Shown piece after piece: positions 48,774 through 52,719 of a stretch of 64,000 bases of DNA. Position 1 is the stretch's first letter. The number at the start of each line of letters is the position of its first letter. Below the pieces are notes generated by a model, which saw only the letters and a program-made list of their open reading frames with translations, did not search any database and was not told where the DNA came from. This stretch comes from Bacteroidota bacterium (GTDB lineage Bacteria > Bacteroidota > Bacteroidia > 2-12-FULL-35-15). Both the position numbers and the translations under genes were made by a program. The stretch covers positions 335,907 through 399,906 of the forward strand of contig JAOQAG010000008.1 in the NCBI GenBank assembly GCA_025963715.1. The letters are read 5' to 3'.

Positions 48774-49757
48774 TTATTGCTTCACAATTTTTTTTACTGC
48801 CGAGTTTCCGTTTGAATCGCTGACCCTTAAAAAATAAATTCCTTTCGGCTGATTTGTTAAATCAATTTCGGTCACATTCTCTTTAATCTTCATTGTTATA
48901 ATCGTGTTCCCCAACAATCCCTTAACTTCCAAAACCGCATCAGTAACAGCTGCTCCGTTTATATTCAGCTTATACTTTCCTTCACCTGGATTCGGGTAAA
49001 CGAAAACATTGTCTTCAGGTTCAGAAGGCTCGCTGATATTCACTGACAGCATAGTGCAAAAAGATCCGGGAGTTGTATAGATCCCGGTAGTGTCCGTAAA
49101 GCAATCCAGCACATTCTGTATCTCGAATGGAGGCATTAATATTCCTAAAAAGCCAAAAGTCGAGCCTACTCCTTCAATTATTGAAACGTATGCCGGTCCG
49201 GGATTTGCTGTTTGTGAAATATTAAATCGTTTATGATAAATACTTCCTATCAGCACCGAATCGATTGAGCTTACCGTATCAGTAGACACAATAGTAGGAT
49301 GAGTATACGATCCGGGCAAAGTATCACCTACGCTTAAATTAAAATCGTACAATAATGTATCGGTTAATTCTCCTGCGGGAATAAAATAAACTTTTTTATT
49401 AGATACATCTTCCCTGAAAGCACCGGGATAATAAATACTGGTGCTATTGTGTAAATAATAATATGAATACAAACTACCCAGCTGACATCCCCAGTAGCTA
49501 CCCGAAGACCCGGTTGTAGCCGGATTTGGACTGTCATAAATAATTCCGGCCCATTTCAATTTATGATAGGTTGTCCCGCTGATAATAGTATCGCCATCAA
49601 TATTAACCTGGTAATCCCTGCAGCAGTTACAGTTATAATCACCCGAATTTTCCCGCCACAATGCACCGGCGCCCGGAAAAGAATGATAAACGCTGCTTTG
49701 TGCTTTCACAAAGCTTAAAGAGAAGCAAAAAAAGAATAAGAGTAGCAGTCTTTTCAT
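48774..49757 (-). CDS. T9SS type A cargo protein of unknown function
   Basis: The protein has 327 aa with a signal peptide (residues 1-19). The mature part is rich in Tyr, Ser and Gly and has a cysteine cluster CNCCRDY near residue 43. The C-terminal ~80 residues (VYPNPGEGKYKLNI ... GIYFLRVSD ... AVKKIVKQ) form a type A sorting domain. No enzyme motif is visible. The family is common as single-domain secreted proteins in Bacteroidota. It is divergent from the ECF sigma gene over a 107-bp gap containing a palindrome. Confidence 0.85.
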   Translation of the reverse strand: MKRLLLLFFFCFSLSFVKAQSSVYHSFPGAGALWRENSGDYNCNCCRDYQVNIDGDTIISGTTYHKLKWAGIIYDSPNPATTGSSGSYWGCQLGSLYSYYYLHNSTSIYYPGAFREDVSNKKVYFIPAGELTDTLLYDFNLSVGDTLPGSYTHPTIVSTDTVSSIDSVLIGSIYHKRFNISQTANPGPAYVSIIEGVGSTFGFLGILMPPFEIQNVLDCFTDTTGIYTTPGSFCTMLSVNISEPSEPEDNVFVYPNPGEGKYKLNINGAAVTDAVLEVKGLLGNTIITMKIKENVTEIDLTNQPKGIYFLRVSDSNGNSAVKKIVKQ

Positions 49758-49808
49758 GTAAATGGGTTTAAGGTTTATCTAATTTAACAAAATATTTTCA
49801 AAATCGCT

Positions 49809-49828
49809 GTAACTTTACCGAAAGTTAC
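49809..49828. promoter_or_regulatory. Palindrome GTAACTTT-N4-AAAGTTAC upstream of the ECF sigma gene
   Basis: An 8+8 bp perfect inverted repeat with a 4-nt spacer, 36 nt before the sigma factor ATG and 51 nt upstream of the divergent cargo gene start. It may be an operator for a dimeric regulator of either gene. Its left half TAACTTTA is also close to a -7 element. Confidence 0.4.
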
Positions 49829-49864
49829 CCGTCATAAACCCGAAAACGCACAAAAAACGCTACA

Positions 49865-50350
49865 ATGACCGCAGAAGAATTCAACAAATGTGTTGACCAG
49901 TATGCCGATAATCTTTATCGCTTTATCCTTAAAAACATTAAGGACGAAGAAAAAGCGCGTGACGTTGTACAGGATACTTACGAAAAGCTGTGGCTGAAAG
50001 TATCCGAAGTGGAAAGTACCAACGCAAAATCGTACATGTTTACCACTGCGTACCGCACCATGATCGACCGGATCAGGAAAGACAAAAAGCAGGGTGAAAT
50101 GACGGATGCGAAAATGAACACGCTGAGCCACAGCAGACAATACAGTGATTTAAAAGAAATACTGAACGAAGCACTTACCAAATTACCGGAAATACAACGT
50201 TCCGTAATTTTGCTCCGCGATTATGAAGGTTATAATTATGCAGAGATCGGTGAAATTACCGGTTTGAGTGAATCACAGGTAAAAGTATACATTTTCAGGG
50301 CTCGCGGATTTTTGAAAAATTACATCGGCACCATGGAAAATGTGATTTAA
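49865..50350 (+). CDS. ECF-type RNA polymerase sigma factor
   Basis: This 161-aa protein has sigma region 2 (DEEKARDVVQDTYEKLWLKV..., contact with -10 and core) at about 20-75 and region 4 (LPEIQRSVILLRDYEGYNYA, then LSESQVKVYIFRARGFLK) at about 110-155. The linker is short and there is no region 3 or 1, as in ECF sigmas that respond to envelope signals. It is followed after 25 nt by a membrane protein with anti-sigma features. Its regulon is unknown. Confidence 0.93.
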   Translation: MTAEEFNKCVDQYADNLYRFILKNIKDEEKARDVVQDTYEKLWLKVSEVESTNAKSYMFTTAYRTMIDRIRKDKKQGEMTDAKMNTLSHSRQYSDLKEILNEALTKLPEIQRSVILLRDYEGYNYAEIGEITGLSESQVKVYIFRARGFLKNYIGTMENVI

Positions 50351-50375: not shown

Positions 50376-51686
50376 ATGAAGATCAACAGGAACAATTACG
50401 AAGCTTTTTTCCTCGATTACCACGAAGGAAATCTGGCACCTCAACAGGTGGCGGAATTGTTATTGTTTGTAGAGCAGCATCCGGAACTGAAAGAAGAATT
50501 TGAAAGCTTTGAGAATTTTTCCCTGGAAGATCTTTCAAATATTTCCTTCGGTGATACATCCGGCCTGAAAAAACAAATCACGGTCGAAAACAAGGATGAG
50601 TATTTTATCCGCGCCATCGAAAATAATCTGAATCCAACTGAACAACAATTAGTAGATCAGTTTTTAAAACAACATCCGCAATACAAAGTTGATTTTGAGC
50701 TTTTTCAAAAAACAAAATTAACGGCGGACCGGTCGGTTGTATTTGCAGACAAAGACATTTTAAAAGACATTGCCATCACTACCGATTACCTGCTGATCGC
50801 TTCTGTGGAAGGATTACTCACAAAGCAGGAATCATCCATGTTGAATCACCAACTGGCAGTGGATGCGGAAATGCAACAAAATTATGCGTTATATCAGCAA
50901 ACAAAAGTTACCGCGGATCAAACCATTGTTTTTGAAAACAAAGAAGAATTAAAACGCAAAGAAAGAAAAGTAATTCCCTTGTTTTATTATGTTGCTGCCG
51001 CTGCCGCGATCATTTTATTATTCGGGCTTTCCGTTTTATTTAATAATACAAACAACAACACTCCGGCAGTTGCTGTTAAACCCGCAAACGAACCAAAAAT
51101 AAAAATGGAGAATAACGCCGTAAGCCCTGTAAACACAAAAGAAAAAGATGCGCTGGCAGCAACAACAAACATTACTCCGGCTAAAACAGCTGCGGCAGGC
51201 AAACAAAAAAATACTGCCCCAAACAATTCGATGGCTGTTGCAGTAAATAAAAAAGAAAAAACGATTGTTGCTCCGGTTGAAACACCGGCACCGATTATCG
51301 CGCAAAGCAAAGAAGAAAAACAAAGCCCGGCAGTTGATCCTGAAAACAAAACAAATACCACTGCTCCTGTAACCAACGAACAGCCTGCAATTGCACAGGT
51401 TCGCCCACAGGTAAAACCTAATAACGATGGTCCTTTTTTATCGCTTGGCGAAATTGCAGCAACAAAGATCAAGCAAAAAACAATGGATGAAGATGCATTG
51501 AAAAACGAAAAGAAATTTGGCAAATTAAATAAATTCAGCGGCTGGGATGCATTACAGGTTGTTGCAAAAGGAGTAAGCAAACTTACCGGTAAAAAAGTAG
51601 AAGTAAAACCTACTTATAACGACGAAGGCGAAGTTACTGCCTACGCTTTTAATGCTGGTAAAATAGGCTTTTCGAAGGAAAGATAA
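50376..51686 (+). CDS. Putative membrane anti-sigma factor with triplicated N-terminal repeat
   Basis: The protein has 436 aa. The cytosolic N-terminus holds three related ~55-60-residue repeats (about 5-55, 74-131, 133-196), each with an E-G/N-N-L segment, a helix ending HPE/HPQ, and a segment of the type KxTADxxxVF. A membrane segment (about 201-221; YYVAAAAAIILLFGLSVLF) follows, then a long periplasmic tail rich in Ala, Lys, Thr and Pro with a more ordered end (about 385-436). Known Bacteroidota anti-sigma factors have one such N-terminal domain; the location directly behind an ECF sigma gene supports the call, but the triple repeat is unusual. Function is inferred from context. Confidence 0.7.
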   Translation: MKINRNNYEAFFLDYHEGNLAPQQVAELLLFVEQHPELKEEFESFENFSLEDLSNISFGDTSGLKKQITVENKDEYFIRAIENNLNPTEQQLVDQFLKQHPQYKVDFELFQKTKLTADRSVVFADKDILKDIAITTDYLLIASVEGLLTKQESSMLNHQLAVDAEMQQNYALYQQTKVTADQTIVFENKEELKRKERKVIPLFYYVAAAAAIILLFGLSVLFNNTNNNTPAVAVKPANEPKIKMENNAVSPVNTKEKDALAATTNITPAKTAAAGKQKNTAPNNSMAVAVNKKEKTIVAPVETPAPIIAQSKEEKQSPAVDPENKTNTTAPVTNEQPAIAQVRPQVKPNNDGPFLSLGEIAATKIKQKTMDEDALKNEKKFGKLNKFSGWDALQVVAKGVSKLTGKKVEVKPTYNDEGEVTAYAFNAGKIGFSKER

Positions 51687-51714: not shown

Positions 51715-52719
51715 ATGCGGAGCACCGGTAAATTTTATTCCTGCTTTTTTATTCTCCTGTTCTTCTTCCCGGTTTTTTCATTCTCTCAAACTGAAAAAGT
51801 AAATTTTTCTAAAATTGATGCTTACGCCAAATCAATAAAAGGAATAAATGATCCCGGCAAGCTTTCTAAAAAATTAACGGCTCCTTACAAAACAGAACTG
51901 GAAAAAACCCGCTCTATTTTCAGATGGGTTGCCGAGAACATCAGTTACGATACAAAAGAATTTCATCTTCCTCCATCCGAATCATCTTACACAAAATTGT
52001 TTTACAAGCTGGATCCTGCAACCAAAAACATTGATAATGTATACCATGTTGAATTGGCAAAATATGTTTTGAAAAATAAAAAAGCGATCTGCGAAGGGTA
52101 CGCCGTATTATTTAAAGTGCTTTGCGATAGCGCAAACCTAAAAACAGAAGTGGTGCACGGAATTGCTAAAAATTCGGTGAGCAACATCGGCACAGCCATG
52201 AAAGAGAATCACGCCTGGAATGCTATCTTTTTAGATAATAAATGGCAATTGCTGGATGCAACCTGGGCAAGCGGTTCCTGCAACGACAGCACAACCATTT
52301 TTACAAAACAGTATGACGATTTTTATTTTTTAACTCCGCCCAACAAGCTCATCATTAACCATTTTCCAACAGATCCGAAATGGATGTTATTCAGTAATCC
52401 GCCTTTGTTAACGCAATTTTTAAGCTATCCGCTGGCATACACCGGGTACTTTGCAAACAACATCAGCTCTTACTCACCAATCAATGGAATTATAGAAGCG
52501 AGGATTGGAAATAAAATTTCTTTTACAATGAACATCCCTGTTAAAGATTCAGATATTTCTGTTTCATCAAAAACAGGAAGTAAAGAGATCACAATGAAAA
52601 GACAGGAAAAAACAGTGACCTATGAATATGTGGTCAGCTCCGACAAGGATGATGAGTTGGATATTTTTCTGGATGGTAAATGTGTTTTTACTTACCGGAT
52701 CGTAGTTGTTCCAAAATAA
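51715..52719 (+). CDS. Secreted transglutaminase-like protein
   Basis: The protein has 334 aa with a signal peptide (residues 1-25). Residues about 60-185 form a transglutaminase-like papain-fold domain with the triad Cys in AICEGYAVLFKVLCD (about residue 124), His in NHAWNAIFLD (about 164), and Asp in LLDATWASG (about 181). The rest is beta-rich. Such domains crosslink or cleave peptide bonds in the envelope. It lies 28 nt behind the anti-sigma gene and so may be a target or signal-processing component of that system. No sorting domain is visible. Confidence 0.85.
   Translation: MRSTGKFYSCFFILLFFFPVFSFSQTEKVNFSKIDAYAKSIKGINDPGKLSKKLTAPYKTELEKTRSIFRWVAENISYDTKEFHLPPSESSYTKLFYKLDPATKNIDNVYHVELAKYVLKNKKAICEGYAVLFKVLCDSANLKTEVVHGIAKNSVSNIGTAMKENHAWNAIFLDNKWQLLDATWASGSCNDSTTIFTKQYDDFYFLTPPNKLIINHFPTDPKWMLFSNPPLLTQFLSYPLAYTGYFANNISSYSPINGIIEARIGNKISFTMNIPVKDSDISVSSKTGSKEITMKRQEKTVTYEYVVSSDKDDELDIFLDGKCVFTYRIVVVPK

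Follow-up and report, generated by a model that had tools for sequence, protein, structure and literature searches.

Tandem class I-type domains in a predicted membrane-anchored anti-sigma factor of Bacteroidota

Published models of anti-sigma factors assume one domain per sigma factor, and the described members of the class I anti-sigma domain (ASDI) are treated as one domain of about 101 aa on average (PMC7406223). A gene located directly downstream of an extracytoplasmic-type (ECF) sigma factor gene in the window, by which we mean the whole stretch of 64,000 nucleotides from a Bacteroidota bacterium that was analysed here, seems to depart from this arrangement, with three shorter repeats ahead of a membrane helix. 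What are these repeats, and how might they share a sigma factor? A preliminary description of the gene proposed an anti-sigma candidate whose three copies could bind several sigma molecules, or different sigmas, and give a threshold response.

Three homologous units ahead of a single membrane helix

The three mutually similar cytosolic repeats were borne out by shuffle tests, by an independent profile and by an AlphaFold2 model in which the same fold appears three times. Their limits, first placed at residues 5–55, 74–131 and 133–196, were roughly right when compared with those given by the profile (Table 1), and the motif KxTADxxxVFxxKxxLK, said to be shared by the second and third repeats, is found there exactly, as KLTADRSVVFADKDILK and KVTADQTIVFENKEELK. 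The feature itself had been drawn as positions 50376–51040, which hold only the cytosolic part and the membrane helix of a longer gene.

Table 1. Features of the sigma/anti-sigma locus, in positions of the window
Feature	Positions	Strand	Residues or size	Basis or remark
ECF-type promoter, TGTAACTTT-N13-CGTC	49808..49833	+		upstream of the sigma gene; sole match in the window
ECF sigma factor	49865..50350	+	161 aa	25 bases upstream of the anti-sigma gene
Predicted membrane anti-sigma factor, whole gene	50376..51686	+	436 aa	
Unit 1, putative anti-sigma domain	50385..50576	+	aa 4–67	three-helix part best conserved here
Unit 2, putative anti-sigma domain	50580..50768	+	aa 69–131	profile search, shuffles, AlphaFold2
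Unit 3, putative anti-sigma domain	50778..50960	+	aa 135–195	fourth-helix segment TIVFENKEELKRK best conserved here
Single membrane helix, behind a basic KRKERK stretch	50985..51041	+	aa 204–222	hydropathy
Low-complexity linker, probably periplasmic	51042..51410	+	aa 223–345	sequence
Conserved C-terminal domain, probably periplasmic	51411..51686	+	aa 346–436 (~90 aa)	profile matches

Smith-Waterman alignment of the repeats, scored against 2000 shuffles, was significant for units 1 and 2 (Z 11.9) and for units 2 and 3 (Z 13.9), with no shuffle scoring as high, and not significant for units 1 and 3 compared directly (Z 1.4); the homology of units 1 and 3 is drawn from their link through unit 2 and from the family profile. 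This profile, for which only first units were used, taken from proteins that do not belong to the window's family, detects each of the three units, at 87.6, 44.2 and 22.1 bits, the best of 500 shuffles reaching 7.9 bits. Chance resemblance of the repeats is refuted by the shuffle and profile statistics.

In the AlphaFold2 model of the cytosolic part, each unit is predicted to form a three-helix fold with a short fourth helix, the helices following in the same order all three times; the global confidence of this model is low (pTM 0.31), as expected of beads on flexible linkers. Among the plausible structural matches found with Foldseek and VIA-align, RsiW (Z 4.9), MucA (Z 4.7) and ChrR (Z 3.0) came first, these proteins filling the top rows over a Z range of 2.8–4.9; values below 5 count as weak on the scale of the tool, and the small size of the units makes for modest scores. 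With scores of this size, the units are predicted to have the ASDI fold, a three-helix bundle plus a fourth helix, as do RseA (1OR7), RsiW (5WUQ), MucA (8Z6G) and ChrR (2Q1Z, zinc type). The zinc-binding anti-sigma (ZAS) motif HxxxCxxC is absent here, since the cytosolic part contains no cysteine. RseA, RsiW and MucA also share with the window protein a cytosolic N-terminal domain followed by a membrane helix, whereas the window protein differs from ASDI members in its three shorter domains (~63 aa each) in tandem and in the way conservation is divided between the first and the last of them.

A Pfam search of the window protein returned no significant match; zf-HC2 was touched by 4 of 55 units (best E 0.009, a weak match). 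The sequence search against solved structures likewise gave nothing significant, RseA surfacing weakly (E 0.81). That the repeats are unrelated linker helices, an alternative already raised in the preliminary description, was tested and is ruled out by the homology statistics together with the repeated fold. More broadly, a reading in which such linkers, or chance resemblance, take the place of anti-sigma domains would agree with the lack of a Pfam match and with fold-match Z values of only 3–5, but it is opposed by the shuffle and profile statistics, by the fold predicted three times over and by single-unit homologues encoded behind sigma genes, and we give it a next to negligible probability.

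By the positive-inside rule, the N-terminus of the protein is predicted to be inside. A profile of the C-terminal domain matched 56 loci, in the genus of the window and in loci L039–L065, with zero matches in Chitinophagaceae; a Pfam search of the domain returned none. The domain is conserved across distant Bacteroidota, yet without a Pfam entry, and it may be a sensor or effector-binding part.

The neighbouring sigma factor, its proposed promoter and its predicted targets

The sigma factor of the window scores above the cut-offs of PF04542, PF08281 and TIGR02937 and has the features of an ECF (group IV sigma-70) factor, with regions 2 and 4 only, a length of about 160 aa and an ECF-type promoter. 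Its best family among NCBIfam models is NF058625, 'GFO_1088 family ECF-type sigma' (GFO_1088 / PG0214), where it reaches 121.9 bits, below the curated cut-off of 130, and is therefore not formally a member.

An ECF sigma gene lies directly upstream in every relative with units that was checked, an order shared with class I anti-sigma factors, whose genes adjoin that of an ECF sigma. Among 36 genomes of the genus, sigma factor and units occur together in 27, the sigma gene stands at a contig end in 1, neither gene is intact in 7 and both are truncated in 1 (G027). The adjacent 161-aa sigma factor had been proposed as the likely partner, a view now backed by gene order in all relatives checked and by joint retention or loss. 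Because the sigma gene is upstream in all relatives, the two genes are gained and lost together and an ECF-type promoter precedes both, this sigma factor is, judging from the genomes compared, almost certainly the partner of the anti-sigma protein. The protein itself is very probably a membrane-anchored anti-sigma factor of class I type with tandem domains.

Decayed forms of the operon were observed in G027 and G031, where the start of the sigma gene runs directly into the sequence for the anti-sigma C-terminus and all units are gone (L029, 2112–1477, minus strand; L030, 1366–1818). The G027 form corresponds to a single deletion from within the sigma gene into the anti-sigma C-terminal part; in G031 the same remnant is shorter. 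Both keep the promoter region, with the TGTAAC box mutated in G031.

As for other neighbours, LepA and NadB flanks are often common to the loci. The divergent neighbour of the window (48774–49757) has a type IX secretion sorting tail (PF18962), and a secreted transglutaminase-like gene lies directly 3' of the anti-sigma gene on the same strand (51715–52719); the latter was not found in the other genus loci fetched and is perhaps a recent neighbour.

The promoter motif, counted at the loci as TAAC-N15–17-CGTC, is present, similarly placed, upstream of the sigma gene in 28 of 28 genus loci and in 24 of 28 distant loci (shuffled mean 0.12), and Chitinophagaceae promoters, inspected by eye in printed examples, show TGTAAC with CGTA instead. 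Across 21 genus genomes with the sigma factor we found 71 matches versus 31 for a reversed control pattern, so that part of the matches is due to chance; 5 genus genomes without an intact sigma gene gave 1 match, which belongs to the decayed operon of G027. Within the genome of the window, the matches besides that of the sigma gene are located upstream of a DUF2807 lipoprotein and of a small secreted protein whose gene adjoins one with a PspC domain, and DUF2807 proteins recur behind the motif in other genus members. The small regulon predicted in this way (L300, 1501–1891; L301, 1501–2309; L302–L329) includes DUF2807 (head GIN) proteins, at least one of them with an outer-membrane barrel, and other secreted proteins, among them a small TonB_C-like one.

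Promoter and predicted targets would fit autoregulation and an envelope function. The SM6 ECF promoters of Flavobacterium psychrophilum likewise carry a CGT box at -10, and the SM6 genes include one sigma/anti-sigma pair, with type IX secretion genes among the reported targets (PMC9723704); here the predicted targets are mainly DUF2807 proteins, and the likeness noted is one of promoter and gene content. Since a promoter and a small regulon can be proposed, the activity of the system could be read by a simple reporter.

Copy number and conservation of the units

A single small domain had been taken as the norm in Bacteroidota, which holds for distant anti-sigma factors but not for this clade, where two units are usual. 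The single-unit profile matches (L086–L100) are ordinary anti-sigma factors, also encoded behind an ECF sigma gene. Two units are found in 141 of 142 Chitinophagaceae proteins and in many Bacteroidales, and three in 26 of 27 members of the window's genus and, elsewhere in the sigma tree, in two more branches; the exception in the genus, G028, has lost unit 3 in frame. The two-unit anti-sigma factors of Chitinophagaceae and Bacteroidales relatives, identified here and not named in the literature searched, share with the window protein the unit, the sigma subgroup and the gene order, and most of their loci have the same promoter motif or its CGTA variant. They differ in having two units instead of three and, in Chitinophagaceae, in a different C-terminal part.

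The duplication history was taken from the sigma tree because resolution is poor in the tree built from individual units, in which single-unit domains show a tendency to cluster with first units. Three-unit proteins appear in three places of the sigma tree, and its well-supported branches force at least three changes, including the loss in L028. Copy number changes, yet holds steady within lineages, and one, two or three lineage-fixed copies with the same sigma subgroup constitute a natural series in which stoichiometry or geometry can be set against stress threshold. Class I anti-sigma domains are already well known and the tandem copies are the new aspect: we found no published description of tandem or duplicated anti-sigma domains in a literature search that excluded most subscription journals.

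One locus of another family (L085, 1417–2673, minus strand) encodes one clear and two decayed units and is perhaps a further three-unit lineage; the unit-count script scores it as one unit. Insertions are tolerated in the linker that joins units 2 and 3; in some relatives this linker contains palindromic, intergenic-repeat-like DNA read in frame (L011, 1888–1932; L020, 1888–1953).

Mean pairwise identity is 77, 55 and 51 % for units 1, 2 and 3, and dN/dS values of 0.10, 0.16 and 0.15 indicate purifying selection on every unit. The copies are old and have been retained, yet the first alone resembles a typical anti-sigma domain. The divergence of units 2 and 3, and the 22 region-4 matches above cut-off in the genome, might suggest a separate sigma factor for each unit, the protein acting as an integrator. 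However, among orthologues units 2 and 3 have drifted further than unit 1, opposite to the constraint that three separate partners would be expected to exert, each genome has one sigma factor of the subgroup, and sigma factor and array are lost together; the window genome, moreover, has no second gene with clear units. We regard different sigma factors as very improbable. Of the two possibilities raised in the preliminary description, this one is thus disfavoured, and binding of several sigma molecules gained no positive support.

Identity over whole units conceals a division within them. In every large group tested, conservation of helices 1–3 peaks in the first unit and that of the fourth-helix segment in the last. 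The bootstrap intervals of the first/last differences exclude zero in the window's genus (26 proteins), in two two-unit sets (12 and 20) and in 141 Chitinophagaceae (helices +0.45 bits, 0.38 to 0.51; fourth helix -0.33, -0.43 to -0.23), with some overlap in family between the last set and one of the two smaller sets of two-unit proteins. Five other three-unit proteins show the same direction, with the fourth helix not clear of zero for 2 of the 3 segment limits tried, and the effect persists after removal of the basic KRK end. Where helix 1 would make its contact, every unit has kept an acidic residue (E17, E82 and E145), equated by our own alignment to D11 of RseA, whose contact is described in PMC7406223, and the fourth-helix motif F-x-x-K-x-x-L-K is the family consensus. 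The split makes the role of each unit sharply testable with short deletions.

How the array may hold its sigma factor

Structures of known complexes show helices 1 and 3 in contact with sigma region 4 and helix 4 in contact with region 2 (PMC7406223). Since helices 1–3 are best conserved in the first unit and the fourth helix in the last, we favour, with a probability of about 0.4, a reading in which one sigma factor is gripped by both ends of the array, which fits the pattern at least as well as the binding of several sigmas. The three-helix bundle of unit 1 would be the main docking surface, the fourth helix of the last unit a second contact and the middle unit a spacer; in one-unit relatives a single domain would make both contacts, as RseA or RsiW does. 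We tentatively propose, as a step further, that tandem duplication split the class I contact surfaces between the first and last domains, so that a chain of two or three domains grips one sigma factor with its first and last members; pulling on the chain between these two points, or cleaving it there, could then release the sigma factor.

The protein would be built as a cytosolic array of three tandem anti-sigma domains, then one membrane helix, then a periplasmic sensor part. At rest, the array would keep the sigma factor at the membrane, and an envelope signal would release it, leading to transcription of its own operon and of a small number of genes whose products are secreted or reside in the outer membrane. 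The sigma factor itself probably reads the promoter of both genes, in which case the anti-sigma factor would close a feedback loop.

Two other ways of sharing the units have to be weighed against a grip by both ends. Unit 1 alone might bind the sigma factor, units 2 and 3 being descendants that now serve as spacer, membrane-proximal stalk, protease substrate or dock for another partner. The strong conservation of unit 1, the grouping of single-unit domains with first units, the insertions tolerated between units 2 and 3 and the membrane-proximal position of the last fourth helix are all compatible with this. Plain spacers, however, give no reason for the last fourth helix to be kept more strictly than that of unit 1, as it is in independent groups, and two units are fixed in 141 of 142 Chitinophagaceae; we therefore find this account somewhat unlikely. 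Alternatively, each unit might bind one sigma factor, up to three per protein, and the array would work as a multi-site sink with a sharper or higher threshold. Such a sink agrees with the predicted fold, the acidic helix-1 residue and the F-x-x-K-x-x-L-K consensus retained by all three units, with the purifying selection on all of them and with their maintenance in 26 of 27 genus members, but equal sites should be conserved alike, and unit 1 is far ahead of the others while the fourth helix behaves in the opposite way. Furthermore, elsewhere one or two units are enough for a sigma factor of the same subgroup, and G028 has lost its third, which makes a sink unlikely in our judgement. For the favoured grip by both ends, the last fourth helix is also the one nearest the membrane, so that a role at the membrane or towards a protease might account for its conservation instead.

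Mean-field DCA between the sigma factor and the units (141 pairs, Neff 104) gave no enriched block. A joint model was obtained for a relative (L003) whose two genes are in frame, with the intervening stop codons read as glycine and the whole predicted as one AlphaFold2 chain (pTM 0.42), in which the read-through linker favours unit 1. The sigma factor is modelled in a compact, inhibited form, as with RsiW, CnrY and NepR (TM 0.70–0.78), and not in the extended holoenzyme form. The fourth helix of unit 3 has a pLDDT of 82 in this model versus 64 in the model without sigma factor, two different proteins being compared, and alignments of closed PhyR to the joint model have a matched range reaching residues 366–368, at that same helix. 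The joint model hints, weakly, that the fourth helix of unit 3 lies by the sigma factor.
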